64,000 nt of DNA from Closterium sp. NIES-65 (Eukaryota; Streptophyta; Zygnematophyceae; Desmidiales; Closteriaceae), in assembly GCA_948144175.1 (NCBI GenBank), contig CANXME010000531.1, positions 558,001 through 622,000 on the forward strand. The letters run 5' to 3'. This document shows positions 717 to 59,045 of the stretch, one piece after another. The notes below the pieces were generated by a model. It was not told the DNA's origin, searched no databases, and saw only the letters and a list, made by a program, of their open reading frames with translations. Position 1 is the stretch's first letter. Every line of letters begins with the position of its first letter. The translations under genes were made by a program, and so were the position numbers.

Positions 717-1199
717 TGCTACAGGTAAGTACCAAGGTGCACCTGTGCAGGCACCTTGGCAGTATCAAACCACTCCACTGCGCTGAGGCAACCAAAAACA
801 CTCTAATGGCCATACAAGCAAGCACCACAATAGGCCACAGCAGAACTGCTCATTAAGGCAATAAAATACACAAATTACAAATGTTGAGTACATGAGTTAT
901 AAACGTCTGTAGACGAAGCGTTCCAATATGCGGCCAGCCACTGCATGTATACAAATACGCCAGCCAGTGGCCTATGCTGCAGCTGGAATTATTCCCTCCC
1001 CACTACCGTAAATGCGCTCCGAATGACCAGTGAGAGATGCAAAAACGTATCTTCTGTTTGCACTCCAAGCAGACATGCCAACACAACACAACCCCCAGGC
1101 TTCTCACAAGGGCGGGCATGCCAATTCTGAAACGATCTCAACCAACCAACACGCACACACAACCTTTCGAGGCGCTTCGAAAGAACTCACTAGCTCCTA

Positions 1200-1395
1200 C
1201 CTCTTTGTGCGAAGGGACAAACCCACATACAGCCTATCGTTGTTGCACACGTATCCGTTGTTCAACTCCGCCAGCTTCACATGAAAGGCACTCCTATCGG
1301 CGCGTGCAGAGGCTAAGCCCAACATAGAGCCTATCATTTGTACACACATGTCCGTTGTTCAGCTCCACCATCTCGCGCTTCTTCCCCAACCACTA
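1200..1395 (-). repeat. Two extra copies of the LysM gene's terminal coding end
   Basis: On the minus strand, 1200-1290 and 1303-1395 repeat the last codons of copy A (an [15 protein letters not shown]-type stretch), downstream of its stop. They are tandem duplicates of the 3' coding end, not separate genes. A palindrome, CTTTCGAGGCGCTTCGAAAG (1164-1183), lies at the edge. The same kind of tail duplication follows copy C. Confidence 0.6.
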
Positions 1396-4524: not shown

Positions 4525-4766
4525 GGGGTCTACGCACGTCGAAAGAGTGACAATGAGAAAGGGAGAGGCTCACCAGGTTGGGGTTCTGAGCGAGAAACGC
4601 CTCCTCGGTGAGGCCGTAGAGCTAGTAGACAAGCGGGCAGTCGATGTCTATTGGGAAGACGACAGTGTAGGTGTAGGGCGGGATGGCTGCAGGGACGTGG
4701 GGTGGGGAGGGGACAGATGGGGAGCGGGGAAGACGAGCGGGCAGCCATTGTGGATCAGGAAGGCAG

Positions 4767-4784
4767 TTGTGAGGCGCCTCAATG
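4767..4784. repeat. Palindrome between direct repeats
   Basis: TTGTGAGGCGCCTCAATG carries the GAGGCGCCTC core. The DNA on each side (about 4695-4766 and 4799-4870) is a direct repeat of about 70 bp containing GAGCGGGCAG, so the palindrome marks a duplication junction. Confidence 0.6.
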
Positions 4785-4854
4785 CTAGGGAGGGTAGAGG
4801 TGGGGAGGGGGGAAAACGAGCGGGCAGTCAATGTGGATTAGGAAGGCGACAGAA

Positions 4855-5092
4855 CAGGGGGAGGGAGGGAGGGAGGGAGGGAGGGAGGGAGGGAGGGAGG
4901 GAGTGGAAGAGGGACAGGAGGGACGAAGTAGTGTGGATAGGCGAGTGAGAAGCAAGAAGCGGAGAGGTGAGAAGAAGAGGAGAGATGATATGAGAGGCGA
5001 GAAGAGGAGGAGAGACAAGAAGAAGATGAGAGGCGAGACAAGGAGGAGAGGCGAGGAAGAGGAGGAGATTCGATTAAGGATTGAGAAAACCT

Positions 5093-28945: not shown

Positions 28946-29040
28946 TTACAATCTACCAAGGGAAAGCTTACTAAGGTAAAGTACAATCCACCAATGGAAA
29001 GCCTACAAAGTAAAAATACACAAACTTTTGTGGTACAACC

Positions 29041-34449: not shown

Positions 34450-34508
<59 letters not shown>

Positions 34509-34653
34509 CATGGGTATGGGCATGGGCACGGGCATGCGCATGGGCATGCGTATGGGCATGGGCATGGGCATGGGCACATGGGCACATGGGCACATGGGTA
34601 TGGGTATGGGCATGGGCATATCGGTATGGGCATGGGCACGGGCATGGGCATGG

Positions 34654-34698
<45 letters not shown>

Positions 34699-38500: not shown

Positions 38501-41500
38501 TGCATACATTGGTTTGAAAATGCACGCTACTCGTCGCCGTCGCCTACGTTCACTCCCCTCCGTCGCCCACACGACCATTCTCCCGTCAATGTCTCACACT
38601 TCCCTCCATCGCCATAGCTCACTCCCTCCCATCGCCCTCGCGCACTCCCCTCCCGTCGCCTTCGCGCACTTCCCTCCCGTCGCCTTCGCGCACACCTTTC
38701 CCGTCGCCTTCGCGCACTCCCCTCCCGTCACCTTCGCACACTCCCCTCCAAAGAGGATGATCACTCCCTCCCGTCGCCCACGCTTCCTTCCTGACGCACG
38801 ATCACGCTCCCTCCCCTCCCGCTGCCTTCGCGCGACGCCTCTTTCGCCCCTCCTCACTCTCTTCCGTCGCCCACGCTCACTCCCTCCCGTCGCCCACGCT
38901 CACTCCCCTCCCGTCGCCCACGCTCACTCCCCTCCCGTCGCCCACGCTCACTCCCCTCCCGTCGCCCACGCTCACTCCCCTTACGTCATGTACGCGCACA
39001 CCCATCCGTCACTACTAACGCTCTCTCCCTCCCGTCTCCCACGCTCCCTCCCTCTAACGAGAACGGGGACTCCCCGCGCCTTGCAACTCTCCTTCCTCCT
39101 GCTACGCCACACCCCACACTCTCGTCTCCCCATCCCTCATCTCCCCTTCCCTCGTCTCCCCATCCCTCATCTCCCCTTCCCTCGTCTCCCCATCCCTCAT
39201 CTCCCCTTCCCTCGTCTCCCCATCCCTCATCTCCCCTTCCCTCATCTCTCCATCCCTCGTCTCCCCATCCCTCACCTCCCCATGCCTCACCTCCTCATCG
39301 CTCATCTCCCCATCCCTCATCTCCCCTTCCCTCACCTCCCCGTCCCTCATCTCCCCATCCCGCATCTCCCCATCCCTCATCTCCCCATCCCTCATCTCCC
39401 CATCCCTCACCTCCCCATCTCTCACCTCCCCATCCCTCATCTCCCCATCCCTCATCTCCCCATCTCTCACCTCCCCATCCCTCATCTCCCCATGCCTCAC
39501 CCCATCTCCACCGCACCCCGTGGCATCGTCACACGTCGCCATTTCCCACCTCTTCCTACTTCCCATCCCCCTCTTCCGCCCTTCCTCCCCCCTTCTCTCA
39601 ATCCCTTCCTCTCGCCCTGCCATCCTACTTCCCATCCCCCTTTCCTCGTTTCCCCAGACCTCCTTTCCCCATCCCGTCATTCACTCTCCCTCCGTTCCCC
39701 ATCCTTCCATTCCCCATGCCTACTTTCACCATTCCACCATACCCCATTCACCATACTCCTACCCCCATCTCCTCCTCACCCCATCTCCTCCTATACACAT
39801 CCGCTTCTTTCCCCTTCCCTCGTCACCGCGTCCCCTCCTCTCCCCATCCCCTCCTCTCACCATCTCTTCTCCCCACCCCCTTCCGTCCTCTCCCCATCCG
39901 CCCATCCCACCTCACCACTTCCCTCCTCTTCCCATCCATCCTCTCCCCATCCCTCCCCATCCGTCCTTTCCCCATCCGATCCTCTCACCCTCCCCTCCAG
40001 GTTTTTCCCACACCGCCCTCGGCCCAGCGGCACCTATTCATCCCTTGTGCTTTTCTGCACCAGGGAGCTGCTTGGGGCGCTGTGGGTGGATGGCGGTGGG
40101 CAGAGTCACACAGCATAGGCAGACGTGGTGCTGCCTGTCCTCCCTTTCCCCCGTCCTCCCTCCCCATCCATCCTTCCCTTCCTCTGTTCCTCTCTTCCTC
40201 CATACGTCCCTTCCTCCGTTTCTCTATCCCTCTTTTCCCCTGGTCGTCCTTCTGTTTGTCTCCTACCGTTCCAGAGTGTCTTCTTATTTCTTCCTCTTCG
40301 TTTTGCTTTCTTGTCAGTTGTCATTCTTTTGTATGCTTACCGGCTGGAATGTTGGTTGTTTGATAGTACCACTAGGTATGATACATGGCTGTGGGAATGT
40401 TGTACCGGTATGTTTATTATTATAACTAAATTTTGATCCATAGAGTAGAGTGACTATTGACCACCTACGAAGTGCAACAATCTAGTAAAAAAGGACCGAG
40501 TTACTATGCCTTTTCCCACTCTTGTCTGCATACACAGCAGCGAAAAAGCAGGACTTGTGGGTCCCTCCCTACACCTGGTGCTGGGGACCTGTACAGAATG
40601 GGCAGGAAAAAACAGAGTGCAGGGGAGACATTGAGCAAGGGGGAAAGAGAGTGAGGAGGGGGGAAGAGAGTGAGAAGGGGGGAAAGGGAGTGAGCAGGGG
40701 GAAAGAGGGTGGGCATGGGGGAAGGGAGTGCACAGGGGGGGAACAGAATGAGCAAGGGGGAACAGAATGAGCAAGGGGGAACAGAATGAGCAAGGGGGAA
40801 CAGAATGAGCAAGGGGGAACAGAATGAGCAAGGGGAAACAGCATGAGCAAGGGGAAACAGAATGAGCAGCGGGGAAGAGAATGAGCAATGGGAAAACCGA
40901 GTGAGCAAGGGGGAAACGGAGTGAGGAGGTGAGAAGAGAGAGAGCAAGGGGGGAGAGAGCAGGGGGGAATAGAGCAGGGGGGGATAGAGCAGGGGGGGAT
41001 AGCGCAGGGGGGATAGAGCAGGGGGGGATAGAGCAGGGGGGGATAGAGCAGGGGGGAATAGAGCAGGGGGGATTATAGCAGGGGGGGAATAGAGCAGGGG
41101 GGAATAGAGCAGGGGGGGATAGAGCAGGGGGGGATAGAGCAGGGGGGAATAGAGCAGGGGGGGATAGAGCAGGGGGGGATAGAGCAGGGGGGGATAGAGC
41201 AGGGGGGGATAGAGCAGGGGGGAATAGAGCAGGGGGGATTATAGCAGGGGGGAATAGAGCAGGGGGGAATAGAGCAGGGGGGGATAGAGCAGGGGGGAAT
41301 AGAGCAGGGGGGATTATAGCAGGGGGGAATAGAGCAGGGGGGAATAGAGCAGGGGGGAATAGAGCGGGGGGGAATAGAGCAGGGGGGGACAGAACAGGGG
41401 GGATACGAGTGAGGAGGAGAGAGTGAGCAGGGTGGAACAGAGCAGGGGGAATAGAGCAGGGGGGAATTGAGTGAGGAGAGAGTGAGCAGGGGGGAACAGA

Positions 41501-42560
41501 GTGAGGAAGGGGGGGGAGAATGAGGAAGGGGGAAGAGAGTGAGCAGAGGGAAAGAGAGTGAGCAGGGGGAAAGCGAGGTCGACGGGAGGGGGAAAGCGAG
41601 GTCGACGGGAGGGGGAGAGCGAGGGCGACGGGAGGGGGAAAGCGATGGAAACGGGAGGGGGAAAAGCACGGAAGGGGATGGGGGGAAGCAGGGAGGGGGA
41701 TGGGGGGAAGCAGGGAAAGGGACATGGGGAAGTAGGGAAGGGGATGGGGGGTAGCAGGGAAGGGGATGGGGGGAAAGCAGGGAAGGGGACATGGGGAAGC
41801 AGGGAATGGGATGGGGGGAAGCAGGGAAGGAAAAAGGGGGAAGTAGGGAAGGGGATGGGGGGAAGAAGGGAAGGGGATGGGGGGAAGCAGGGAAGGGGAT
41901 GGGGGGAAGCAGGGAAAGGAACATGGGAAAGCAGGGAAAGGGAAAGGAAGGGTGTGTGCGGGTTGGAAAGGGGGCGTGACAAGTGTGGGAGTTGGGAAGG
42001 GAGAAGGGAGGGATGGCGACAGTGACGGAGATGCCAGGGCGACGAGGGGAGAGAGATACGGGGATTGCGAGGGGACGAGCGGGAGGAAGGGCGATGAGCA
42101 GCAGGGAGCGCGACGAGACTAAGGGGGGCAACGGGCGGAAGGGAGCGCGACGAGGGGAAGGTAGGGCGGCGGGTGGTCGGGAGGGCAATGGGAGGAAGGG
42201 AGGGCGACGAGACGAAGGGAGGGTGACGGGCGGAAGGGATGGCGACGGCGAAAGGGAGGGCGACGGGCGGAAGGCATGGCGACGGGCGACGGGCGGAATC
42301 TATGGCGACGGCGGAAGGGAGGGCGACGGGCGGAAGGGAGGGCGACGGGCGGAAGGGATGGCGACGGCGGAAGTGAGTGCGACGGGCGGAAGGGAAGGTG
42401 ACGGGCGGAAGGGAGGGCGACGGCGGAAGTGAGTGCGACGTGCGCTAGGGAGAGCGACGGGCAGTAGGGCGACGGCAGGAGGGAGTTTGATGGGCGTAAG
42501 AGAGTGCGACGAGCGGAAGGGAGTGCAGGCGTGCGGAAGGGAGTGCGACGGGCGGAAGCG
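38500..42560. repeat. Minisatellite cluster, pyrimidine-rich then purine-rich
   Basis: Successive arrays: CACTCCCCTCCCGTCGCCCA-like units (about 38636-39000), CATCCCTCATCTCCC 15-mers (about 39117-39510), general C/T-rich DNA to about 40300, then GAACAGAATGAGCAAGGG units (about 40738-40870), GGGGGGAATAGAGCA units (about 40950-41400), GGGGATGGGGGGAAGCAGGG units (about 41690-41930) and GACGGGCGGAAGGGAGGGC units (about 42115-42560). Very long Pro/Ser/Leu- or Gly/Arg-rich open frames here are compositional. Confidence 0.9.
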
Positions 42561-44682
42561 GGTGCGTCGAACGTACATGTGAGGCTAGCGCCCGATCCGT
42601 GCGCTTGATCCGTGCGCTTCGAACGTACTTGCGAGCGCCATCGTCCCTGTAGAATTGGGGCGTGACGCATGACGTTTTTCTTTAGGCTGGCTGATATTAT
42701 TTTTGTTGGAGGTAAAAACCAACAGACTGCTGCAAGGATATAGACATCTCGTTGCCATTGTTTAAAAGCGATACTACGCACTCTTGTGGTCCTGAACAGC
42801 GGAGCGCCCTATGTGTCCTAGACTCAATATGGCTGCACATGAGTACAACTCGGTTTTCAAGTTTACTGAATGTGAACAGTGGTCCAACTCCCGTTGACAC
42901 TTCACGTGGAATACTTTTTTTTGGTCGCTGGCCAATCATGCATCAGAGTTGTGAAGCATCTCCTCCGTGAGGCGACGGAAAGCTGCACTTCGGGTGGTAA
43001 CCTGGTTTTTGGCGAGTTCATGCTCAAGAATCTTGAATTTGAAAAATGCCATGTGGAACTCGGGCTTTAAATAGCGGCACTGACTAAGTTGAGATGTTGC
43101 CTGCATCTCGGTTCTGCTCAGTAAGATGCCAGGATGGAGCGGAAAAAGCGGAAGACATATTTTCATACACGTGCAGCCGTACAGTATTTAGCAGAATCAG
43201 CTCTACCGAACAGCATATTTAGCTGACCGTCTCTAGGTTTTGTAAGAATACTGCGGCTGGAGGAAAAAACATGTGAAATACCGTGGCGCTGAATGTCGAG
43301 TGTTTATTGGCTGTTCCGACAGAGGCTTGTGGTGGCTGCGCAGGTAGATCTCGGTGGACAAAACCTAGTGGGAGAAGATCATACAGAGGCCGAACAGTGC
43401 CAGGAAGGTGTTCGAACAAGGGCCAAGAGGCCCGGAACTACCCAAACCATTGCTTTAAAAGTTGTTGACAGAAAGATATCATTGAATGAACGTATGTCTG
43501 TTAACAATTTGCATTTACGCTCGCGCGTCATTCTACATGGAAATGTTTACCGATTCATCACCTTCCACCCAATAGCGTCGTTTAGCAAGCCGGAAACTCT
43601 TAGGGCAGCCAAAAAAACTAAAGCCCCGAGGAGAACCTGGATGCGTTTTCGGGATGGATCAACCCTAAAAACGGGAACCTTCGTTGTTTTTAGGGTTGAT
43701 GCCTCCCTAGTCGCATACATTTCCGAATGGGTAATATTTTTTTTTCTGCGCGTTTCCGATCAGGGGGTGATATTTATCACCCATAATGAATTTGTTTTCG
43801 GACTCACAAATTAACACAGCAATATTTACTTCCAGAAGAACGCGATGTGCGCGTAGTAGTAGACGGCGATCGTAACTAATGTTTTAATAAGTTGGATACA
43901 AAGTTTGGTGCTGGTAGCTTTTCTCTTTTAGTCACGGCTCGGCTTGTTCGCCTAGCCTCTTGGGCAGCTCGGGGTAAAAAATCCTACGGTTGAGATTTTC
44001 TGGCCCTACTACGTCATTCTTCTGGCACTCTTCGGCCCCATTTTGATCATCTCCCAAACCTGGTCACGAAAACCAAATATTGCTGAGACAAGTTAAGACT
44101 GAGGATGTATGCACTGTCACTAGTGTATTAACTTTCAAAAAAAAAATTGCTGAGACAATATGGTGTAAGTGTTTTGCAATGCATATGCATGAAAAGGAAC
44201 TCACAAAGCAACATCTCAAACAGGAAAGTGATGCTGCCAATGTGGGGTTAATATCCAAACCCAGAATGTTGACTTGACAGGTCGTGCGACCTCTCTCCCT
44301 GCATGCACCTCACACTCCGTTTCATGTTAGCTGGGAGCTAATAAGCTTGCATGGAGCTACACCTGGTCAGCTTACCAATATCACTGCTCGTATCGGCCAA
44401 CATGAATCTCCTAACCGTTCACTCTCTCGGAATTCACGTGGGCTCCACAGCTTCCGTGTCGCGTGAGTCGCGGCCTGGACCACGCACCACAAGGCGCTCT
44501 TTCCAAAAACTAGGGTTTGCCTACAATAGAAATTCGGGGATTTTTGCAGACAGCCGATTTTCGTGTATTCTTAAAGTACCAACGCACCATCCTCTCGTTC
44601 CTTAGCGGCGTTTCTTACAAAAACTTTTGTGCCCTTTCACGAAGTATTCTGAAACAGTAATATTTGGCACCGTTTCAAACAG
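42561..44682. other. Intergenic region with one strong hairpin
   Basis: No gene is recognised. A 173-codon open frame at 43293-43814 has no domain I know and irregular composition. A perfect inverted repeat with 15-bp arms (ATCAACCCTAAAAAC at 43658-43672 and its complement at 43686-43700, loop 13 nt) lies inside it. Confidence 0.4.
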
Positions 44683-45309: not shown

Positions 45310-46763
45310 CTATTGATGTGCTTCTTTGAGCTGCAATTAACATACCAAGTGCAATAGAAGATTGTACAAAAATGCACATGATATAGTGCCATCCTCGCAG
45401 CATTTCAGTGCTCTAGCACCGATAGCCAGTGTCTTGATTGCACCCTCTAGACAATCCAATCCGGCTGCAAACATTCCCTATGAAACCATAGGAAGTTCAA
45501 CTAGAAGCCCCAATTAATGCTAAACGTAATGACTCAAAGAATGGAGGAGCTGAACCTAATCTCATCGTTTTGTCAGTTGTTGACGATCTCGATATTCATA
45601 ACACCTGCACAGGCTGGAAGGAAACATTACTGTACAGCATGGCGGAACATCCGCAGCAACCTGCACAGCGCACAGGCAGCCAAAACCTGACGTGTCTCTG
45701 CAACCAATCAACACGCGACCTCCAGCGTCGCTCGCGGAATTCTCACAACCAGCCGTGTTTCCGTACCACCGCAACGATAGTTGGGCTGTTGTGAGAATTG
45801 AGAATTTTGGCTGAATGCCTCACGAATACAGCGAAAAACTCTGCTGAAACCCTGGTGATTGTCTATATTTTGGGGTGCAAGGAACGATTACATACATATT
45901 TTGATCTGAGAATTCGCATCTGCCGCTTCTTGCGCCCCACCCCTGGCGGCTTTGCGAGCCGAGGCGCAGGCAACATTCGAAATCCTCAGGCTCCACCTGG
46001 GCACGGATAAATTTCTCCCAGTCGCGCGCACTGCCACGCAATGAGGCTTCCGGGCGCGTGCCATGGAGCGGTACACCGGGTTTCCGCGAGCTACAACATG
46101 TCATCCTCTATTCCCGCCTTTCGGCTGGAGAGGGTACAAGACATTAGGGTAGGGGCGAAAATAGATTCAGGCTGATCCGGCAAGAGCTTCCTGGCAGTTG
46201 TCGTAGCTCGCAAGCCGCGAGGGAGTCGTCCACATCGCGAAAGTCTGATGTAGCTGAGCGGCTGTGGCTTGCGCAAGTCCGGGCCCTTGCGGAGGCCTCT
46301 CCCTCCCCTCGCCCCCCGCTCGTCTTGGCAAGCGCGCGAGAAGCCTTTGATCGAATGGTTGTGTTCACGACGGGGTCATAGGCGTTTGAACACGACAGAC
46401 GTAGTACAAAGTCAGCCCATCCATTGGCTCAGAAGTTATTTAGGCGCCTCAGAAATTTCCTCGCCTATCAGATTCTTGAGTCGACTTAAAAGACACCTCC
46501 GAAGGCTACCGAGTCGACCGTCGACTGTCACGTCCGACGTGAGTCATCGAGTTCAAGTCTTCAAATCGCATTTCAAGTCTTCAAGTCCAATCAAAGCCTC
46601 CATGCGTACAGCCGCCATGCGCATCCACGGCGGTTGCTGTTGCGCCGGGCTCGCGGCGGCGGCGCACCGCTGCGGTTCGCGATCGAATTCGACATTGCCA
46701 CGCGCCGCCAGCGCGCGCCGCGCCGGAAGGGAACTTCTCCCTTCCGAGCCGCGTCGCCGGCCA
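45310..46763. other. Region between the membrane-protein gene and copy C
   Basis: No gene is recognised. It should hold the 3' end of the membrane-protein gene and the promoter of copy C. Two worn palindromes (TTTAGGCGCCTCAGAAA near 46439 and TTGAGTCGACTTAAAAG near 46475) lie about 300 bp upstream of the start used for copy C. Confidence 0.4.
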
Positions 46764-47606
46764 ATGCCAACTAACAGTGACCGTTTTGTGACCAGGCATG
46801 CCTCCTTGACGGCGATCTCCGTGCTTCTCGCTGCGCTGCTGGCGGCGAACGGCAGTGTCACCCCTGTCGCAGGTCAGTCATGCATCCTTCCACCTACTAC
46901 CTTCCTTGCCTTCCGGTGTTTACCTCTCGCCCTCACAACTGGCGCCACTCCCGCACCGCTACCAGAATCAATACCGTATCTGTGACAGAATCATTCCCCC
47001 TCCGTTACTCTCTCCCTCTTCCCATCCTCTCCCCTCCCCCTTTCCTCTCGTCTCTCCCCCGTCTGGCCCCGCCGGTACCAGCCCAAAGCTATAATTGCAG
47101 CGCAAATCCCGCGGTGGCCTCGGTGACTCCCAAGTACGCGAACCGCTTCTTCCGGGTGATCAGCACCATCTCGAACCTCTACCCCATTCAGAACTGGGCC
47201 GCGGACACCCGCCTCCAGCCGGTTCTCACGCCGCTGCGCACCGAAGGCAGATGCAGTGAGTGCGCCGCCGATCTTTGAGACATGTTACTGCGCGCAGGTT
47301 GTTGAAAGGCGAACCGGCTCTTCCGGCTGATTAGCAACCTTTAGGCACGTAGTACGTACGAGGGCCAAACATTTCTGGGTGGCACCATCTCGAACATCTT
47401 TTCTTATCAAAACTGGGCCTAGAACACCCGCCTCCAGCCCATTCTCGCGCCGCTGCGCACCGAAGGCAGATGCAGTGAGTGTGGCACCGCGGCGGCGGCG
47501 GCCGCAGGCTGGTTTTCCGAGAGTTTCTTGGGAGGGAAAGGCCCCCACGTGAAGTTAGCGCGAGATGGATTAGACGCGGACACACCTGCTCGCGCAGTCA
47601 CGCGCG

Positions 47607-47637
<31 letters not shown>

Positions 47638-50600
47638 GCGCAGCGAGCACACGCCGCAGAACAACGCCGCGATCACACAGGCTGGCGCGCATGTGCTGGC
47701 TGAAGAGACCCGGGGGAAGGGAGAGGGGGAGGGAGAGGGGGATGATTCTTTGAAGTGAGGGGATCAGAGCAATGCTTATTTTCGGTGCTAATCTGAAGAG
47801 TATATGTAATTTCTTGTCCCTCAACTCACCCCCCTCCCCTCGCCTTCCCCCTTTCACCCCCCAGAGGCATCATGGGCCATCACGGCAGTGAGCGCGGTGG
47901 AAATGGCGTACGCGTTAGTGGCTGACTCGGTGCCCTCCATGGCGCCCCCTCAGCGCCTATCACTACAGCAGGTGCGGAAGCTACTATCAAGCACGGGTTC
48001 TTAACCCGAGCAGTAACTGTTACTACTGAGTTAGTATTATACTACTGCTGATACCATCACGATATACGATGTACGCGTAGCTTGTACCTAAAGGCTGCTG
48101 CAGCGTCAGGTTCAGCAGGCGCGCTCAGCGCAATTCAAAACAGGCTGTTCTGTACTTTCTCCTGCTCTCCAACCCCCCGAGTAAACAGAAGTGTTTTGAG
48201 ACGTCTCAAAACACTTCTGTTTACACGTGGCGCGCTCAGCGCAATTCAGAGCAGGCTGTTCTGTTCCGTACTTTCCCGTGCTCTCCAACCCCTCGACCCC
48301 TCACGTGCTGGACTGGACTGCAGGAACAGCAGTACCAGCAGCAACTGCATTGACGGCGGGTGGCCTCCGAATCACTTTTGAGAATTCTCAAGACTTAACT
48401 GGCTGTGGGTGGCCGGCGGCGGCGCGGGACTACATGGTGTGCCACGCGGCAGGCGAGGAGGGGGGCATCTCACAGCGTCAATTGCACCGTCAAAATCTCG
48501 GAGTGTTCCGTCCAGCGTAAAAAACGGAACCGTCAAAATTGCTTGCTCCGTCAAATCCAACTAAGTAACTCTCCTCCCCCCACCCGCAAACCCCACAGGT
48601 GCTGGACTGCAGCTACAGCACGAGCAGCAACTGCATCGACGGTGGGTGGCTGACGGCAGCAGCGCTGGACTACATGGTGGACGCCACACGCCAGTGGGGG
48701 CTGTTCCCAATTTGGCTGTTCTCAATGGGGCTGTTCCCAATGGGGCTGTTCCCAATGTGGAGGGCGTCTCATCGCCACAGCACCGATTCAACTCTCCTCC
48801 CCCACCCCGCAAACCCCTCAGGTGATTGACTGCAACAACAGCAGCAGCAACTGCGTTGACGGCGGGTGGCCGACGGCAGCGCTGGACTACATGGTGGACG
48901 CCACACGCCAGTGGGGGGGCCTCGCCGCCGAGACACCCTTCTTCCCGTACCTGCAGAGGCAGAGCAGATGCGTCCGGCGCAAGGTACGCCTGGGGGTGGT
49001 CTGCCAGGGGGAGGTGGTATTTGAGAAATCTCAATACCGCGGCAGTGGGGAGGGCTTTTCGCCGAGTTAGCCTTTTGAATTGTCTCAGAACTTAACTTTT
49101 ATCACGTCGCCACGCGGCAGTGGGGCAGCCTCACCGCCGAGGCAGTGGGTCGCCTGGGGGAGGAAACTTTTAACACTAATATTTCACAGGCGTTACATGG
49201 GTGGTTTTTGAGTCGACTCAAAAGGCAGCGGAATGCCTGGGGGAGGCAACTTCTAACACCAGTATTTCACAGGCGTTACATGGGCGGTTTGCCTGGAAGA
49301 GGTACTACGCCTGGGGGAGGTACGCCTGGGGGAGGGTGCATCTGGGAACGGTGCCTTGCCCATGTATATTCTTATGACCTAGTGTCCTGCTCTTGTGCCC
49401 TGACCTTGCACCCCTGCCCATGTGCTCACGTGCCCATGTGCGCCCATGCGCCCATGCGCCCATGCGCCCATGCGCCCCTGCGCCCATGCCCAAGCGCCCA
49501 CACTCATGCGCCCACGCCCATGTGCTCTGTCTGTGCGCCCATGCGCCCATGCCCCTGTCACCACGCCCATGCGCCCTCTCTGTGCGCCCCCTGCGCCCTC
49601 TCTGTGCGCCCCCTGCGCCCACAACCCTGCGCCCATACCCCTGCGCCCATACCCCTGCCCCCATACCCCTGCCCCCATACCCCTGCGCCGTGTCTGTGCG
49701 CCCAGGCGACGACCATAGGCATCACGGGGTACGACCAGGTGGACTTCTACAGCTGGTTTGGCCTTCTCCTTGCTGTCAACGTAAGCCTTGCTGTCAACAT
49801 AAGGCTAAACGCCGACTAGGTATCACGTTAAGTCATGGCATGTACTGGTGGGCATCACGGGGTACGACCAGGTGGACTTCTACGGCTGGTTTGGCCTTCT
49901 CCTTGCTGTCAATGTAAGCCTTGCTGTCAACGCAAGCCTTGCTGTCAACGTAAGGCTAAACGCCAACTAGGTATCACGTTAAGTCATGGCAAGTACTGGT
50001 GGGCATCACGGGGTATGACCAGGTGGACTTCTACGGCTGGTTTGGCCTTCTCCTTGCTGTCAATGTAAGCCTTGCTGTCAACGCAAGCCTTGCTGTCAAC
50101 GTAAGGCTAAACGCCGACTAGGTACCACGTTAAGTCATGGCAAGTACTGGTGGGCATCACGGGGTATGACCAGGTAGACTTCTACGGCTGGCTCGCCCTG
50201 CTGCTCGCTGTCAACGTCAGGCTCGCTGTCAACGTCAAGCCCGGTGTCAAAGTAAGGCTCGGTGTCAACGTCAGGCTCGGTGTTAACGTCAGGCTCGGTG
50301 TCAACGTCTGGCTCGGTGTCAACGTCAGGCTCGGTGTCAACGAAATGCTCGGTGTCAACGTCAGGCTCGGTGTCAACGTCAGGCTCGGTGTCAACGTCAG
50401 GCTTGGTGTCAACGTAAGGCTCGGTGTCAACGTCAGGCTCGGTGTCAACGTCAGGCTCGGTGTCAACGTAAGGCTTGGTGTCAACGTCAGGCTCGGTGTC
50501 AACGTCAGGCTCGGTGTCAACGTAAGGCTCGGTGTCAACGTCAGGCTCGGTGTCAACGTCAGGCTCGGTGTCAACGTCAGGCTCGGTGTCAACGTCAGGC

Positions 50601-53600
50601 TCGGTGTCAATGAAAGGCTCGGTGTCAACGTCAGGCTCGGTGTCAACGTCAGGCTCGGTGTCAACTTCAGGCTCGGTGTCAACGTCAGGCTCGGTATGCT
50701 TCCGTGCTGATGATGAATAGTACTTCTGTGACATTGCAGGTAAGAGGGCAGGTTTCTGAGGTGCCTAAATTATCATCCTTAGTCTCGGTGCTGGTGTGCA
50801 CCCGTGCTGGTGTGCTCCCGTGCCGATTATAGATAATACTTCTGTGACAGTTCAGGTAAGAGGGCAGGTAACAGGGCAGGAAATTTGCACAAACAGTCTG
50901 GCTGTAGCTTCTTCACCCCTTACCTTCCTCCTTCCCCTCCGCCCGCACTTGCCAATCCGCCCATTCCTCATCTCTCATTCTCCTCTCCTCCCCTTATCAT
51001 CTCTTTCCCTTATCCTCTTCTCCCCTTATCCTCTCCTACCCCTCTCCTCCCCTTCCTCTCCTCCCCTTTTTCTCTCCTCCCCTTATCCTCTCCTCCTCTC
51101 CTCCCCTTCTTCTCTCCTTCCCTCTCCTCTCCTCCCCTTCCCTCGCCCCCTTCCCCTCTCCTACGCTCCACCTCTCCTTCCCTTTCCTACTCACTCCCCT
51201 CCCCCCTTTGCCTATCTGCTCCAGACTCAGCCCACCATTGCCTTCGTGCTAGGCTCCTACCCCTCCTAATCCACCTTCCCTTCTCATCCCCTCCGCCTCT
51301 CCTTCCTTCCCTACCCACTACGCTGCCCCAACGCCTCTCTGCTGCAGACGCAACCCACCATTGCATTCGTGCAAGGCTCCTACCCCTCCTTCCAGACGTA
51401 CACGCAGGTACGAGAAGCACTGTATGGTGTGTGTTTTGAGCCGACCCAGAAGCAGTCACCCCTCCTTCCAGACGCACTCTCAGAGGTACTGCACTGTTTT
51501 GAGTCCCTTTTGGGTTGACGCCACCGAGGCTCGTTGCAGGTTGTTTTGCTTCTCACAGGTAGCAGGGACTTTGCTTCCGCTCATGTGATGGGCAGTCATG
51601 GCATGTAGAAGCAATAGCACGCATGGCATGCAGCCTTGGCATGCAGTCATGGCATGTAGAAGCAAACGCATGGCATGCAGCCTTGGCATGCAGTCAACTG
51701 TGCTCATCCTTTCCCTTCTCTCCCCTCCTTTCCCTCATTCCTCTCTCCCTTCCACCTCTCCCCGTCCACATGCTTCCCCACTTCACAGGGCATATACAGC
51801 GACCCAGGGTGTGCAGCGGCAGGAGTGGTGGATCACAGCGTGCTGGTGATGGGGTGGCGCGAGAGGTACTTTTGGGTCGACTATAAAATGGTGCAAGAGG
51901 TACCATGCATTGCACCGTCCTCACCTTTCCCCTTTCCAACTCTCCCTGCTCTTCTCTCTCTCTCCCTCCACTTTGCTCCCTCGCTCCCACCCCAGGGCAC
52001 CTACAGCGACGCAGGGTGTGCAGTGGCGGGGGTGGTGGATCACAGCGTGGTGGTGATGGGCTACAGCATCACGGCTGACAGCGCATTCTGGATCCTCCGC
52101 AACTCCTGGGGGGCCACGTGGGGCATGCAGGTGGGATGTGTGCTGTTAGCCTCACAGGGATGTACCGTCATGCTCCTAGTGCCACGTAACCGATTGCACT
52201 GTGTCACGTGCTCCTCCTCTTCCCGAGCCGTTTTTTCTTCTCCTGCTCTTTCCTCTTCCCTCTCTCCCCTCCCCTCTTCGCTTCCTCTGCATGTGTTCTC
52301 ACTCTCTTTCTGCATTCTCACTCTCTTCATGCAGGGTTACATGCAAATGGCCTTTGAGGGAGGCGTTGGCATCTGTGGCATTCACTCAGTGCCGGCCCTC
52401 TACCCCATCATTAAGAGTGAGTAGATCTTCTTGCTTCTATCCAGAGCGCACGTGCACATGTGCACTCGCACGCACACTCGCACGCACACACACACGCGCA
52501 CTCGCACACACACTCGCACACACACTCGCACACACACTCTCACGCACACTCGCACACACACTCGCACACACACTCGCACACACACTCGCACACACACTCG
52601 CACACACACTCTCACGCACACTCGCACACACACTAGCGCACAGTCGCACACACACTCTCACGCACTCTCACGCACACTCGCACACACACTCTCACGCACT
52701 CTCGCACACACACTCTCACGCACACTCGCACACACACTCTCACGCACACTTGCACACACACTCTCGTGCACACTCGCACGCACACTCGCACACACACTCG
52801 CATGCACACTCGCACGCACACACACACGCGCACTCGCACGCACACACACACGCGCACTCGCACGCACACTCGCACACTCAGCACCCAGTGACATGTCAGC
52901 ACCTTGAACCCCCTTTCCTTGCCCCCTCCCCACACACCAGCGCCCTCGCCATGCCTGTCACCTCAGAACCCATGTGGGGGAGGCACATGTCAGGACCTTG
53001 GGAACGGCCAGTACACATGCATGTGCGAGGAGCCGTACTTCATAGCCGTTACTGACAAAGGCGGCGCGCAGACGTGTGTTTTTGGTGAGTGGCGCCCACA
53101 CCTGTGTGTTTGGCGAGATGGGGTGCGGGCATGGGTGGTTGAGATGGGGTGGAGAGGAGGCATGGTTGAGATGGGATGGTATCCAGGAAGCACAAACGTG
53201 ACACTCGTTTGAGTTGCAGGGTGCTTTTGAGAATCCTCAAAACACTATGAACAAGGCTCACACTGATTTCCCCCTACTTGTCCCCCGTTTTTTCCCACCT
53301 TTCCCCGCTTTTCACCCACTTCTCCCCACTTGCCATCATCTTCCCGCCCTTCCCTTCCCATTACAACACATGACCTTACATTGGATCTCTCCTCCCTCCC
53401 TCTCCCTCCCAATCCCTCCAACTTCCCTTGCGCCTCCTCCCCTCTCCCCCGACCTCTTCCCCTCTCCTTGCCCCCGCCCCTCGTCCCCTCCCCACCGCCC
53501 ACTCGCCCCCTCCCACTTTCCCTTTTCCCACTCGCCCTCTCCCACCTCCCCTCTCCCCACTCGCCCCCTCCCACGTCCCCTCTCCCCACTCGCCCCTTCC

Positions 53601-56600
53601 CGCTCGCCCCCTGCCAGCTGACGTGTGCAGCCTGCAGGATGACAATCCCTGTGCGGTCGGCACGTGCATCAACGACAATGCGGGCGGCTTCTTTTGTCTC
53701 TGTCCGCCGGGATTTGACCAGGGGTACCGGCCCAATGGCGCTTACACATGCGTCCCAAGTAAGTGTTCATGCGGGCGGCTTCTCTTGTCCTTAAGATATT
53801 CATGTTTCTTTAGGAGCCACAGCAAATCACATCCATCCCATCCCATGTATGCACACTTTACTTCTGAACCATCACTGCAGCTTCCTTTCTCTTGTGTTCT
53901 TCTCGCCTCTCAATCACCACTCCTCCATTCCTCTCCTCTCTCCTCTCCTCACCTCCCCACTTCTTGCTTCTCACTCACCTAACCACACTTATCCGTCCCT
54001 CCGGAACCTGTTCACCTTTTGAGGCGCCTCAATACTCCTCCCTTCCCCACTTCTTGCTCCTCTCTCACCCTAACCACACTTCTTCGTCCCTCTTCAACTT
54101 GTTCCCCTCCCTCCCGTCCCCTCTCCACCTGACTCTTTCCAGCCTCCAACACAACCACCACCCTTTTTTTCAGCCTTTTTTTTTTGTCTGTCCTCCCTGC
54201 ATTCCTGCAGCCTCCAACCCCTCATACACCGTCGTCTTCCCAATAGACATCGACTGCCCGCTAGTCTACCAGCTCTACGGCCTCACGGAGGAGGCGTTTC
54301 TTGCTCAGAACCCCAACCTGGTGAGCTCTCCCTCTCCGCTACCGCTTCTCCCTTCTTAAAAGTGGACCTGTCCACTTCTCTCTCAAAAGTGACTCCTAAT
54401 AGTATATCTCGCTCACAGCCGCAACCGCTTCACCCCGCGTCTACCATACAAACCCTTCGGCCATACAAACCTTTCTGCCTCTCAGAACTCGAACTCGTGC
54501 TACTCACACCCCAACGCACCCACCCCACTCCATCCCACCTCACCCCACCCCACCCCACCCAACCTTTTATCACCTTTTGAATAACAGAATATGGATCACT
54601 GCATGACCATCCCTGCCAACACAGAAGTGAGCATGCTGCCGCCCCTCACGGGGTCGGTGCAGTGCGGGCTGTTCTACTTGTGGTCACTCCACCCCCACCC
54701 CACCCCGCCCCACCCCACTGCACCACACCCCACCGCACCCTACCCCACCGCACCCCACCCACAGAGCATGGACCACTGCGTGACCATCCCCAAAAGCACG
54801 TACGCGAGCGTGCTGCCGCCCCTCATGGGGTCGGTGCAATGCGGGCTGTTCTACTCGTGGCCTGGTCACTGGTGCAACTCACAGCCCATCCCATCCCACC
54901 CCACCTCACCCCACCCACAGAGCATGGATCACTGCGTGACCATCCCCAAAAACACGGAAGTGAGCGTGCTGCCACCCCTCATGGGGTCTGTGCAGTGCGG
55001 GCTGTTCTACTCGTGGACGGCGAATGACACATGCAAGGGCGTCGCGGGCTTGTTCTCGCTCACAGTGGCCGGCTTTCTTCGTCTCAACCCCGGGATCAAC
55101 TGCACGAGTAAAACCGCCTGGAATGCTCCGACTGTGAACCAGCAGGTGAGATTCGGTACAGTGTGGTGCTTAATGGTATGGCGGCCCAGTTGGCGGTGAA
55201 TCCGCTGTGGGGCTCGTCCCGGAGATCAACAGATTGTTGTGTGCTGACACGCCCATGCCCATGCCCATGCGCACGGAAGGTGTATCTGAGTAGCTTCGGA
55301 AAAAAAAGAAGAACGAGGCGCCTCAAAGCTAGTCTGCTCAGTGTTTTTGAGAATTCTCAAAAACACTCTGCAAAAAAAAGAAGAACCAGGCGCCTCAAAA
55401 CATGAGACGACTTGGCACTACGAAAGTGGGCTCGACTCGGAGATGAACAGCTTGTGAGCTGACAGACCTGCACATGCGCACGGGGGGTAATGGGGCAGAC
55501 CTGCCCTTGGGCGCGCAGCTGTGCATGGCAATAGGCTACGGGGCAGACCTGTTGGGTGCGCAGCTGTGCATGGCACTAGGCTACGGGGCAGACCTGCCCT
55601 TGGGCGCGCAGCTGTGCATGGCACTAGGCTACGGGGCAGACCTGCCTGCACCGAGGTAGAGTTTTATGCGCCTCAAAAACCACTTCCCTTCTTCCTCTCT
55701 TCCTGCCCTTGTGTGTGCGCAGCTGTGCGTGGCATTAGGCAACGGGGCAGACCTACCCATGTGCACGGCATGGTACACAGTGATAGCGGGGGACATATGT
55801 CCGAGCATCATGGCAGATCACTGTCCCCTCTTCCCACCTCTACACACTCTCCTTGCCCTCCACGCAGCTGTGCGTGGCATTAGGCAACGGGGCGGACCTA
55901 CCCATGTGCACGGCATGGTACACAGTAAAGGCAGGGGACACGTGTGCGGACATCATGGCGGATCATTCTCTCAACGACACCACATTCTTTGCACTCAACC
56001 CGGGGCTGGGCTGTGACAGCCTCTTCCCCTCCGTTGGGGGAAGCCTCTTCCCTTCCTTCAGTGGCAGCGGCCGCGGCTGGAGTGGGGATGGCGTGCAGGT
56101 GAGCAGTGGAGTGCGGTGAAGGTGGGTGAGGGTATGGGGGGTGAGTTTCTTTACTTTCTTCGCACTCAACCCGGGGATGGGCTGCGACAGCCTCTTCCCC
56201 TCTATCGGGGGCGTAAGGGGCAGCCTCTTCCCGCCCTTCAATGGCAGCGGCCAAGGCTGGAGTGTGAATGGCGTGCAGGTGAACGGTGGGGAGCGGTGAT
56301 GGTGCTGACTGCAGTATACGCCCATCCATCCCATCCTTCTACCACCATTTACCCAACCATTTCCCCCTCACTAGTATACGCCCTTCCAACTTTCCAGGTT
56401 GCGTTTTCATGCACTATTGGACTACCCTCCACGCCCATCCATCCCATACTTCTACGTGCGATAACATATTTTTAGGCGACTCAAAAGTCGTTGTCATGCA
56501 TGATTTGAGTATTCTCGTGTGACGAGTCGCTTTTTTAGTTGACTCATCATACATGCATGATTAGAGTATTCTCCATGCCCTTCCAACCCAAACTTCTACC

Positions 56601-58123
56601 ACCATTCCACGCCCATCCATCCCCATCACAAGTGTGAGTGTCTCATAATACATTGCCAATGCACCCAGCCCATTGCCTCGCTCTCACGTCGTTTCCTGCA
56701 CACGCCTATCTTCCCCCTTTTATGCTCTTATCTTCCCCTTTTTATGCTCCCATCTTCCCCCTTTTATGCTCCCATCTTCCCCCTTTTATGCTCCCATCTT
56801 CCCCCTGTTATGCTCCCATCTTCCCCCCTTTTATGCTCCCATCTTCCCCCTTCTATGCTCCCATCTTCCCCCTTTTTATGCTCCCATCTTCCCCCTTTTA
56901 TGCTCCCATCTTCCCCCTTTTATGCTCCCATCTTCCCCCTTTTATGCTCCCATCTTCCCCCTGTTATGCTCCCATCTTCCCCCTTTTTATGCTCCCATCT
57001 TCCCCCTTTTTATGCTCCCATCTTCCCCCTTTTATGCTCCCATCTTCCCCCTTTTATGCTCCCATCTTCCCCCTTTTATGCTCCCATCTTCCCCCTTTTA
57101 TGCTCCCATCTTCCCCCTTTTATGCTCCCATCTTCCCCCTTTTATGCTCCCATCTTCCCCCTTTTTATGCTCCCATCTTCCCCCTTTTATGCTCCCATCT
57201 TCCCCCTGTTATGCTCCCATCTTCCCCCTTTTATGCTCCCATCTTCCCCCTTTTATGCTCCCATCTTCCCCCTTTTATGCTCCCATCTTCCCCCTTTTAT
57301 GCTCCCATCTTCCCCCTGTTATGCTCCCATCTTCCCCCTTTTTATGCTCCCATCTTCCCCCTTTTATGCTCCCATCTTCCCCCTTTTATGCTCCCATCTT
57401 CCCCCTTTTATGCTCCCATCTTCCCCCTGTTATGCTCCCATCTTCCCCCTTTTTATGCTCCCATCTTCCCCTTTTTATGCTCCCATCTTCCCCCTTTTAT
57501 GCTCCCATCTTCCCCCTTCTATGCTCCCATCTTCCCCCTTCTATCCTCCCGTCTTCCTTCTGTGCTCCACGCCCATCCATCCCCATCGCAGGTGTGTGTG
57601 GCTGCACACATCGTCAATGCACCCAGCCCATTACCCTCGCTTTCACATCGTTCATGCCACTGCCTATCTTTCCCCCTCTGTGTTCAACCCCCATCCATCC
57701 CCATCGCAGGTGTGTGTGGATGCATACATCGTCAATGCATCCGGCCCATTCACCCCTCGTTCACTCCGCGAGCTCTCCTCCACTTCCTCATCCCCTTCTT
57801 CCTCCTCCTCCTCTCCCTCGTTGTTCTCAACACGGGGAAGACGGCTAGGTCCCTACTCCTCTTCCCACACATCACAACCCTCCCTGCCTCGCCTCCCGCC
57901 CCTCATCCCTTCTCTCTCCGCCCAACCAATGAGAGGGCGCCAGCTGGCGGTGTCCAAGGCGCCATGCTTGAAGTACTACTATGTGACGAAGGGGGACATG
58001 TGTGCGCGCATCATAACGCTCAAGTTCCAGAACAGTGCGCAGAAGTTGTCAGAGCTGAACAACGGATATGTGTGCGTTAATAGCAAGCTCTATGTGGGGC
58101 TCTCGCTTTGCACCCGGAGGTAG
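46764..58123 (+). CDS. Papain-fold pseudoenzyme with two EGF and four LysM domains, copy C
   Basis: Fourteen exons with GT/AG borders and matching phases: 46764-46872, 47082-47255, 47865-47971, 48822-48983, 49706-49780, 51348-51407, 51996-52130, 52335-52416, 52941-53084, 53618-53758, 54211-54320, 54921-55145, 55868-56098, 57710-58123 (722 codons). Start MPTN is shared with copy B; an upstream Met at 46602 is possible. Residues 1-36 are a signal peptide. Residues about 65-301 form a C1A-like domain without an I29 propeptide: [45 protein letters not shown]. Ser97 replaces the nucleophilic Cys and Glu91 the oxyanion Gln; His245 and Asn265 remain. EGF-like domains span 302-349 and 350-396. LysM domains lie at about 397-465, 465-508, 520-560 and 671-722. 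LysM domains bind GlcNAc-type glycans, so an extracellular chitin- or peptidoglycan-sensing or wall role is plausible. Exons 2, 4, 5, 6, 7, LysM2 and LysM3 have tandem extra copies nearby. Proteolysis by Ser97 is doubtful. Confidence 0.8.
47300..47475 (+). pseudogene. Decayed extra copy of exon 2 (copy C)
   Basis: It repeats exon 2 (GAACCGGCTCTTCCGGCTGA to GAAGGCAGATGCA|GTGAGT) with stops and gaps, and keeps the splice donor. It lies directly downstream of the intact exon. Confidence 0.65.
47606..47636. repeat. A-homopolymer
   Basis: A run of about 30 A's inside intron 2 of copy C. A similar but shorter A-run occurs near 36070 in copy B's equivalent intron. Confidence 0.9.
48181..48224. repeat. 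Perfect 44-bp palindrome between 60-bp direct repeats
   Basis: A 22-bp arm (GTAAACAGAAGTGTTTTGAG plus AC) is followed immediately by its exact reverse complement. Left (about 48119-48180) and right (about 48229-48296) flanks are direct repeats starting GCGCGCTCAGCGCAATTCA. It lies in the intron before the exon-4 copies. Confidence 0.95.
48305..48700 (+). pseudogene. Two incomplete extra copies of exon 4 (copy C)
   Basis: About 48305-48365 and 48599-48697 repeat the start of exon 4 (VLDC...SSNCIDGGW). The second copy has a good acceptor (CCCCACAG before 48599) but lacks the exon's second half and donor. A palindrome (TTTTGAGAATTCTCAAG, 48376-48392) separates the two. The complete exon 4 follows at 48822. 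Confidence 0.65.
49016..49038. repeat. Imperfect palindrome after exon 4
   Basis: GGTATTTGAGAAATCTCAATAC is a near dyad about 30 bp past the exon-4 donor of copy C. Confidence 0.5.
49206..49223. repeat. Perfect palindrome between 52-bp direct repeats
   Basis: TTTTGAGTCGACTCAAAA lies between 49153-49204 and 49235-49286. Both of these run from GCCTGGGGGAGG to GGCGTTACATGGG with few differences. Confidence 0.85.
49706..50700 (+). repeat. Exon-5 copies and an 18-bp array of splice-donor-like units
   Basis: Exon 5 (49706-49780) is followed by three further copies of its 3' part (GGGTAYGACCAGGTGGACTT, at about 49858, 50012 and 50161) in a unit of about 150 bp. The last copy runs into about 27 copies of GGCTCGGTGTCAACGTCA (about 50200-50697). 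The 18-mer derives from the exon-5 donor (GCTGTCAAC|GTAAGC); several units keep GTCAACGTAAGG. Confidence 0.85.
51225..51268 (+). pseudogene. Decayed extra copy of exon 6
   Basis: It repeats [13 protein letters not shown] after a good acceptor, but runs into a stop and lacks the donor. The intact exon 6 is at 51348-51407. Another short echo (CCCCTCCTTCCAGACG) follows at 51461 beyond a worn palindrome (51434-51450). Confidence 0.65.
51789..51865 (+). pseudogene. Extra, partial copy of exon 7 (His part only)
   Basis: It encodes [23 protein letters not shown] with its own acceptor and a GT after 51865, but it is 77 nt, out of phase, and lacks the Asn-bearing half. A worn palindrome (51868-51889) separates it from the full exon 7 (51996-52130). 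Confidence 0.7.
52447..52885. repeat. CA/CG-rich microsatellite
   Basis: CACACTCGCA and CTCACGCACA repeats fill the intron between exon 8 and the first EGF exon of copy C. The Thr/His- or Val/Cys/Arg-rich open frames here are artefacts. Confidence 0.95.
54017..54032. repeat. Palindrome between 60-bp direct repeats
   Basis: The core TTTTGAGGCGCCTCAA lies between two segments (about 53957-54016 and 54046-54105) that each contain CCACTTCTTGC and CTAACCACACTT. Confidence 0.75.
54588..54860 (+). pseudogene. Two truncated extra copies of the LysM2 exon
   Basis: 54588-54683 and 54765-54860 repeat the first 32 codons of the LysM2 exon (MDHC.TIP...[13 protein letters not shown]), each with an acceptor, then break off into CCCCA repeats. 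The full exon follows at 54921-55145. Confidence 0.7.
55340..55367. repeat. Perfect 28-bp palindrome between direct repeats
   Basis: The core TTTTTGAGAATTCTCAAAAA with AGTG/CACT ends is a perfect dyad. On both sides stands AAAAAAAAGAAGAAC followed by a partial palindrome (AGGCGCCTCAAA). Confidence 0.85.
55519..55800 (+). pseudogene. Four partial extra copies of the LysM3 exon
   Basis: CAG|CTGTGCRTGGC starts recur at 55519, 55564, 55612 and 55723. The first three are only about 40 bp; the last is longer, reaching [11 protein letters not shown] palindrome (about 55662-55681) sits before the last. The full exon is 55868-56098. A further LysM3 tail copy lies at about 56155-56280. Confidence 0.7.
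56707..57545. repeat. 22-bp minisatellite in the last intron of copy C
   Basis: Close to 40 copies of CCCCCTTTTATGCTCCCATCTT-like units, varying mainly in the T/C run (21-23 bp). All three forward frames are open over it because the unit lacks stops; none is a protein. Confidence 0.95.
57592..57700 (+). repeat. Extra acceptor copy of the last exon (copy C)
   Basis: CCATCGCAG|GTGTGTGTGGCTGC (exon start 57592) duplicates the real acceptor at 57710, as seen in copies A and B. If it were used, the frame would differ from the last exon. Confidence 0.55.
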
Positions 58124-59045
58124 GAGTGCCTTTGATGCGCCTCAGAAGGTGCTCTGCATTGGAAATTGTTGGAGCTGAACAACGGATACACATGCAGCAA
58201 CGACAGGCGCTCTGCGGGGCTCTCGCTTTGCACCCAGAGGTAGGAGTGCGTGATTTCAAGACGCCTCAAAGGGTGATGTGCATGGTGGTGGTAACTGCGT
58301 GCCAGTCTCGATTGCTCCTTGCTGGCCCTTGTGAGGGCTGCTGGAGGGGTAGACTCGATGTTGGAGTGCAAGCAAGCAGAAGATAGGGTGTTGTTTGCAT
58401 CCCTGATGTGTATTTCCATCTGCAGTTGGTGGGGAATAAATGAGGGAATGACTCGCATCGAGCTTTGGGTGGCGTTTTCATTGGCTGTTGCAGTCAGTGG
58501 GCTGTCAGGGAGGGCTGCCTTGGGGCTTTGTTTTATGTACTCTACCTTTCTAACTTGTAATGTATTGGGTTGATTGGATAAAAACTTTGCTGTGAATTGT
58601 GGAGCTTGGGTGACCAGTAGTGTGTTTCTCATTGCCGCAATGCAGCATGGGTGTGGATTGACTTGGGCATGTTGGCAGTACTAGAAACAATCACATCAAC
58701 ATGCTGTCACACTAAATTCATAATCACACCGCACTAGACCATGCCTTCCGTCACATGATGTCTTCACCCCAACATAATATTTGTAACGTTGATCATCTTT
58801 ATGTTGGGCTAGCACGTTGGCACACGGCTGTAGGGCAGCATGCTTTAAAGGCGCCCCAAAAGGTGCTGTGCATTGTTGTGGGGCCTGGAGGGGTAGACTG
58901 AGAGTTTACAGAGTGTCTAACCATGGTGTCAAAGTGTCTGCTTGGACGCAAGTGGAAGATATGCATCGACCAAATGAGAGCAGCCTAGGGTCTTGGCTGG
59001 TGTTTTGAATGGTTCTTGCAGCCAGTGGAGTATCAAACCTTACTG
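58124..59045. other. Downstream of copy C with a duplicated coding tail
   Basis: A palindrome (CCTTTGATGCGCCTCAGAAGG, 58129-58149) separates the true coding end from a second copy of the last 28 codons (about 58165-58250, GAGCTGAACAACGGATA to CAGAGGTAG). A further palindrome (58253-58271) and a worn one near 58845 follow. No gene is seen up to the Copia LTR. Confidence 0.6.

Follow-up and report, generated by a model that had tools for sequence, protein, structure and literature searches.

A short palindrome that recurs between two direct copies of the DNA beside it could be the cause of the duplication, its product or a coincidence, and a stretch of the green alga Closterium sp. NIES-65 raises this question in an acute form. 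The stretch (64,000 nucleotides of contig CANXME010000531.1, positions 558,001 to 622,000, hereafter the window) contains many palindromes of the form TTTTGAG-N4-CTCAAAA, and a preliminary description of it had proposed that they mark the junctions of tandem duplications. The window is part of an assembly of 874,075,685 bases in 2,400 contigs. Among the published C. psl. assemblies, that of NIES-65 measures 876 Mb and has over half of the shared gene groups in duplicate; genome size differs more than twofold between Closterium strains (PMC10407611). The analysis reported here indicates that the palindromes are very probably a dispersed element inserted with duplication of its target.

The palindromes are far too frequent to have arisen by chance. 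A scan of the window for the core pattern TTTTGAGNNNNCTCAAAA, allowing up to three mismatches, gives 36 matches against 1.90 expected, a number reached by none of 100 shuffles; eight of the 36 belong to a single array with 52-bp units at 32623-33067. These shuffles and the masked control positions described below lead us to reject a chance origin. The 12 palindromes first offered as examples are all present, with their cores 0-13 bases to the right of where they had been placed (30031 becomes 30036, and 48181 becomes 48194). They had also been tied to a LysM gene family and separated from the retroelements, a view that holds within the window and fails outside it. All 27 window sites with at most two mismatches fall in two blocks with LysM and papain genes, at 28.9-36 and 45.5-59 kb (limits drawn by eye), and no such site occurs in the roughly 38 kb of the window taken up by retroelements, minisatellites and the DNA between them, nor in 1-5.2 kb. 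Across the assembly, on the other hand, the exact GCGC form TTTTGAGGCGCCTCAAAA occurs at 5,851 places and the exact TCGA form TTTTGAGTCGACTCAAAA at 13,080, with no occurrence of the reversed control in either case; these two of the four forms alone amount to at least 18,931 exact copies. The palindromes are a genome-wide, high-copy dispersed family and not a LysM feature.

The association with flanking duplications was measured in the window and in twenty 10-kb stretches fetched from elsewhere in the assembly (L016-L035, 200 kb), which were picked for exact GCGC palindromes, so that densities and family shares are biased. The combined 264 kb hold 217 sites with at most two mismatches, of which 14 lie too close to a stretch end; the 203 usable sites reduce to 106 independent ones after merging neighbours no more than 150 bp apart, and to 82 ‘clean’ sites once 24 in tandem arrays are left out. 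Flanks were scored by a restricted alignment, with the end of the left copy and the start of the right copy each at most 45 bp from the palindrome centre. Unmasked controls were uninformative, as tandem arrays score high in them (a score of 15 or more at 670 of 1500 controls versus 189 of 203 sites, and in a second series at 66 of 300 versus 70 of 106), and a masked, array-free control was used instead. On this basis, 52 of the 82 clean sites score at least 15; among clean control positions, 51 of 600 placed at random and 82 of 480 placed 150-600 bp away do so. The comparison with random sites that the preliminary description had proposed is thereby settled in favour of the palindromes. The local-repeat background of the Closterium genome is, as these two controls show, not small. 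Among clean sites with an exact core the proportion rises to 30 of 39. A blind set, formed by 12 of 20 exact TCGA sites chosen by coordinates alone (single sites on contigs C6, C9 and C13) and aligned over 150 bp per side rather than the 220 bp used elsewhere, gave a score of at least 15 at 10 of 12, the remaining two scoring 13 and 11. Eleven of the 12 original examples, whose copies are 15-92 bp long, score at least 12; the twelfth, at 51870, has only a 15-bp copy and a score of 9. Further window sites, mostly degenerate, reach 12 in 6 of 17 cases.

The duplicated segment, here termed X, has no fixed length: at 65 sites with at most one mismatch and a score of at least 18 (counting the first units of arrays but not one 31-unit array, and with lengths beyond about 200 bp invisible to the method) it measures 18-121 bp, with a median of 47. 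Its outer boundaries have no evident motif or base preference, as judged by base counts with no formal test. The order is X, palindrome (P), X, and the arrays examined (32623-33067, L006/L010 and L011/L013) both start and finish with X; this order and these boundaries fit an insertion followed by slippage.

More direct evidence on the order of events comes from paralogous sites that carry the segment once and lack the palindrome. At 34048 a 26-bp insert lies between identical 29-bp copies, and palindrome-free paralogs at 49762-50221 (minus strand) span the joined empty site at 80.5, 77.1 and 79.2% identity, with a single copy of the segment. The insert at L022:6656 measures 43 bp and is flanked by 26-bp copies. 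The paralogous site, L022:6012-6125 (87% identity), has the segment once, and both sites continue into CAG|GTGGGT, likely a splice donor. A third, empty-site-like match for 54017 (74%, at 4884-5032) is of low complexity and is not relied on. Judged from the paralogs of the first two sites, the palindrome was inserted with duplication of its target. One cause suggested at the outset, a tiny palindromic element that makes long target duplications, thus survives as a description of the product, borne out by the controls and the empty paralogs, once its restriction to LysM genes is dropped. An assembly artefact is unlikely: copies of X diverge from each other, the palindrome of 48194 is also present in a second, 99%-identical locus on contig C1894, and L034:9299 has two 100% copies in the genome.

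The window sites, with the copies that flank them, are as follows.

4767-4784: degenerate palindrome (three core mismatches), copies 4705-4764 and 4788-4847, score 36
30036-30053: palindrome with a TCAA centre, copies 29984-30018 and 30084-30118, score 29
30585-30602: palindrome core with an ACAT centre (decayed ACGT type), arms of about 19 bp, copies 30522-30551 and 30615-30644
30738-30755: palindrome, copies 30642-30733 and 30758-30848, score 63
32623-33067: array of 8.6 units of 52 bp (Tandem Repeats Finder, TRF), eight GCGC palindromes, flanking segment at both ends
33831-33848: GCGC palindrome, copies 33796-33825 and 33855-33884, score 24, in a locally repetitive stretch
34048-34065: GCGC palindrome, insert 34045-34070, identical 29-bp copies 34016-34044 and 34071-34099, score 29 of 29
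49762-49918, 49919-50069 and 50070-50221, minus strand: three empty paralogous sites for 34048
48194-48211: ACGT palindrome core, insert 48181-48228, arms of 22 and 26 bp, copies 48118-48180 and 48229-48296
49206-49223: TCGA palindrome, copies 49152-49207 and 49235-49290, score 41
51434-51451: degenerate palindrome, 17-bp copies 51382-51398 and 51458-51474, score 17
51870-51887: degenerate palindrome (region 51855-51903), a weak 15-bp direct copy on each side, score 9
54017-54034: GCGC palindrome, copies 53945-54017 and 54035-54108, score 36
55345-55362: AATT palindrome, copies 55300-55327 and 55372-55399, score 25
55661-55678: degenerate palindrome, copies 55593-55643 and 55702-55754, score 31, absent from the preliminary list
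58130-58147, plus strand: degenerate palindrome, copies 58042-58129 and 58162-58249, score 34

The copies at 58130 include the 3' part of a LysM-like exon and, by eye, an apparent donor splice site; those at 55300-55327 and 55372-55399 hold what appears to be part of an older palindrome. As for the surroundings, Pfam places a LysM domain in 29069-29389 (E 7e-5) and a papain-type protease in 51789-52424 (E 3e-10), while a LysM match in 57824-58123 falls under the Pfam cut-off (E 0.0078). The blocks 28900-36000 and 45500-59000 have many inverted matches in common and are probably inverted paralogs. The window also contains a Copia-like reading frame, some 92 copies of CATGGG adjoining the LysM block (34269-34856) and, at 36001-44000, minisatellites that are open in several reading frames and whose strands differ strongly in composition, the GC skew going from -0.25 in one 4-kb bin to +0.40 in the next.

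The anatomy of the palindromes is unusual in that conservation resides in the centre. Copies are 18 to about 58 bp long, often longer than 18 bp, and perfect palindromes when intact. Over the 106 independent sites the central N4 is GCGC in 35, TCGA in 20, AATT in 17 and ACGT in 12 (84 of 106), the other 22 being mostly single variants; at sites with at most one mismatch, 71 of 83 centres are self-complementary, against a chance expectation of 1/16. Beyond the core, many copies continue as longer palindromes, those of TCGA type reaching AGGTGAC or AAGTTGAC ahead of TTTTGAGTC and those of ACGT type GCCACGTG with a variable middle part. For the ACGT copy at 48194, 40 of 69 candidate matches were scored, and other contigs hold scattered matches to it of about 51 bp with identities of up to 100%. 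Arms of different copies agree strongly over no more than the 9 bases nearest the centre, and at base 10 the agreement is 0.34. For bases 10-17 from the centre, agreement between arms is 0.459 within a site and 0.308 across sites, a difference reached in 0 of 400 shuffles with the families pooled; both arms of one copy tend, on this comparison, to derive from one template, with templates differing between copies. In a variant at L027:5490-5570 a loop of 15 bases parts the arms, and its sequence repeats a portion of the arm in inverted form.

How could such a structure be made? The reading that we favour, at a rough probability of 0.45, is that staggered breaks receive copies of a palindromic element that is non-autonomous and present in high copy number. 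Microhomology would prime both break ends on one template, the self-complementary centre would be where they join, and fill-in would produce the duplication. A new copy would enter a staggered break, or a pair of nicks mostly 18-121 bp apart. Each 3' end would anneal over a few bases to one and the same template (for the TCGA form, ...CAAG[T/G]TGACTTTTGAGTC) and would be extended to the template's fixed end. The two resulting tails, with self-complementary tips (GCGC, TCGA, ACGT or AATT), would then anneal, be filled in and be sealed, and fill-in of the staggered ends would duplicate the DNA between the nicks, leaving X-palindrome-X. The joining of two tails, taken as a step by itself, is the more doubtful part of the proposal, and yet it would account for the self-complementary and complete centres, the matching arms, the variable outer ends, the microhomology and the long duplications. 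Existing copies would be the natural source of the template, putatively a hairpin of RNA or DNA, so that a scar would become a self-spreading element, and later slippage between copies would generate arrays of the form X(PX)n. A known structured RNA was rejected as the source, as the window has no Rfam family at gathering scores, no wider search for an enzyme or RNA partner having been made; a viral source was likewise rejected, the TCGA 18-mer (the only form scanned) having 0 matches in viral contigs.

Evidence on priming comes from the junctions of 47 single sites (at most one mismatch, score at least 14, arms no longer than 33 nt; 94 junctions). The shorter arm is mostly the 9-base half-core, its length being 7-10 in 29 of the 47, among sites that were found by a near-intact core. 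Of 28 junctions with a 9-nt half-core arm, 19 have C as the target base before it, against a background of 0.29 (p 2e-5), and in longer arms C stands next to the half-core in 31 of 42 GCGC and TCGA junctions. Among 22 longer TCGA arms, 17 have 1-4 bases in common with the inferred template just beyond the junction, a figure that has no shuffled control, for which chance would give roughly one in three by estimate, and whose template is partly inferred from the same arms. An excess of T at short-arm junctions (15 of 34) is discounted as a product of maximal alignment extension, and A stands at 15 of 34 long-arm junctions. Half-elements are rare: 350 of 405 occurrences of TTTTGAG lie inside palindromes, and the 37 outside (masked) are to be compared with a Markov expectation of 27-33. 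A larger transposon ending in TTTTGAG was rejected on the same count, as the 55 of 405 occurrences outside palindromes come near the Markov expectation once masked and none resembles, by eye, the end of an element. With microhomology at the outer junctions and half-elements rare, fewer of the causes first suggested remain, hairpin-primed template switching and a nuclease-repair scar having been the others.

Besides the weakness of the template-sharing figure, several observations count against this proposal. Scores below 12 were found at 23 of the 82 clean sites and at 6 of the 39 exact cores, and of 223 direct repeats made up of two copies and a spacer of 7-70 bp, 152 lack a palindrome (window and L016-L035, a biased sample). 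A spanning empty-site match exists for only 3 of 70 sites of score 15 or more in the fetched sequence, one of them the low-complexity match, and genome-wide searches with 48194 and L034:9299 gave occupied copies only. The C preference at half-core junctions could be a target-site preference, and ACGT arms mostly have G at that base (7 of 11). Furthermore, copies of ACGT type often have one arm that reaches a common end (GCCACGTG or GCCACGAG) and a shorter second arm. As sites were found via a near-intact core, copies cut within it would escape, and the TTTTGAG count is the sole guard; there the 37 occurrences outside palindromes exceed the mean of 19.2 for 105 heptamers of the same letters, only 4 of the 105 being commoner. 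An array at L030:4982-5138 consists of copies cut just beyond the centre (TTTTGAGGCGCC followed by AGACGA), a rare half-element. The heptamer control leaves room for a modest number of half-elements, which limits our confidence in the favoured reading.

Several competing explanations deserve discussion. Non-long terminal repeat (non-LTR) retrotransposons and short interspersed nuclear elements (SINEs) have variable target duplications, often with one end truncated and with microhomology at the junction. If a small hairpin RNA were inserted through target-primed reverse transcription, by an enzyme of the long interspersed nuclear element (LINE) type, one end would equal the RNA 3' end, the other would be cut short, and the flanking copies would be a long target-site duplication. 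Such retroposition is unlikely here, but it agrees with the varying length of the flanking duplication, a trait shared with SINEs and LINEs, with the microhomology and with the ACGT copies in which one arm comes up to, or close to, GCCACGTG or GCCACGAG and the other is shorter (48194, 30585, L022:6656, L016:2805, L019:5440 and L024:9391). As to truncation at a single end, the copies point both ways: truncation from the 5' end should fall anywhere, whereas copies cut in the core are few, and yet the ACGT copies look one-ended. Several TCGA and GCGC copies are, moreover, short on both sides, and the outer boundaries of X have no evident preference in base counts. Unlike SINEs and LINEs, the Closterium element is only 18 to about 58 bp long and palindromic, its centre is nearly always complete, and its duplication is often longer than the element.

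Break-repair filler would dispense with dedicated machinery: a polymerase-theta-like end joining would copy from abundant hairpin-prone palindromes in a genome rich in fill-in duplications. The many two-copy repeats with other spacers and the microhomology of 1-4 nt speak for this explanation, as does the report that small tandem duplications arise by fill-in and end joining of overhanging break ends and are a known outcome at staggered breaks (PMC8355091). The single copy of the segment at an unaffected locus (34048 and L022:6656) is likewise what fill-in duplication leaves. Plain fill-in has no constant insert, in contrast to the constant palindromic core at the Closterium junctions, and the available part of the same report mentions neither such an insert nor a dispersed family. 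Ordinary filler would also be expected to come from many donors, whereas here a few discrete forms are inserted thousands of times, nearly always with the centre included; a plain repair scar seems improbable for this reason, and we consider filler of this kind unlikely.

A template-dependent healing of ends is rather improbable as well. In that case a telomerase-like or other reverse transcriptase would tail both 3' ends with a fixed sequence that has a self-complementary tip, and the tails would zip into the palindrome with fill-in duplication; every break healed in this manner would bear such a mark, and inserted copies may themselves supply new templates, turning the scar into a self-spreading element.

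Miniature inverted-repeat transposable elements (MITEs) have conserved termini, a short target duplication of fixed length, inverted repeats and a high copy number. The Closterium palindromes share with them, and with foldback elements, the dispersed inverted-repeat structure and the high copy number, and their direct-repeat flanks and discrete forms would suit an ultra-short foldback MITE mobilised by a DNA transposase. They differ in conservation at the centre rather than at the termini and in a duplication that is long and, at 18-121 bp, not fixed as in MITEs and DNA transposons; the TTTTGAG half-sites in the 264 kb do not look, by eye, like the ends of a longer element. A DNA transposase is disfavoured because the outer ends vary, with microhomology, and the duplication length varies too, and this explanation is very unlikely. 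That the palindrome came first and its hairpin provoked duplication of its neighbourhood is scarcely credible, since the X-P-X structure, the arrays bounded by X and the empty paralogs with one X and no palindrome all oppose it, even though palindromes are unstable and arrays do exist.

Other known palindromic families offer partial parallels. Bacterial repetitive extragenic palindromic (REP) sequences are tiny hairpins in many dispersed, extragenic copies moved by REP-associated tyrosine transposases (RAYTs); they differ from the Closterium palindromes in being bacterial and in having no known association with long direct duplications. The organelle palindromes of Volvox carteri form families of 11-77 nt in mitochondrial DNA, are thought to be selfish and also occur in nuclear DNA, where copies are regarded as inert; they are AT-rich, with loops of 3-5 nt (TAAA/TTTA) (PMC2670323). 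Like them, the Closterium palindromes are short, dispersed and arranged in families. Unlike them, they are nuclear, have a self-complementary centre (mainly GCGC, TCGA, AATT or ACGT in place of an AT-rich stem with a TAAA/TTTA loop) and are flanked by long duplications, whereas the available part of the Volvox account describes no flanking duplication. In searches of the open full-text literature, a scope that leaves subscription papers and eukaryotic repeat libraries outside, no listed title or abstract describes such palindromes with long target duplications, in Closterium or otherwise. With that reservation, the structure matches no described mobile element or repair scar that we found.

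Palindrome copies decay. Among the 106 independent sites, 36 score less than 15 and 23 have two core mismatches, the other 83 having at most one. The paralog of 48194 in L048 (C531:407860-408260), compared with 48118-48296 of the window, keeps the insertion and the outer arms and has lost 26 bp of the centre, likely a hairpin deletion and as expected for a hairpin-forming sequence. At the other extreme, L019:219-1335 holds 31 units of 36 bp, with one TCGA palindrome each, and is open in more than one reading frame. Some copies touch genes. A reading frame at L015, open over 3 kb and with no relatives at E <= 0.001 in protein searches, contains an exact palindrome (L015:1500, C21:586374) that is read in frame as the peptide FEAPQ and is flanked by two segment copies of about 98 bp. 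The insert at L022:6656 would, by eye, add a stop codon if the open frame of the paralog is coding. At L028:5363-5456 the duplicated segment is readable as FDGHGGAAVAE, which we take to be typical of PP2C phosphatases, and is followed by a likely donor splice site.

Several of the examined palindromes lie in or at exons (L022:6656, L015 and 58130), so that pieces of genes have been repeatedly duplicated around them. If the proposed reading is true, the palindromes of Closterium would be, to our knowledge, among the smallest dispersed elements of any nuclear genome, with a flanking duplication often longer than the element. Their sites would then provide a readable record of the joining of staggered breaks in a relative of the land plants, and a concrete mechanism, in which templated tails are joined at a self-complementary tip, becomes testable.

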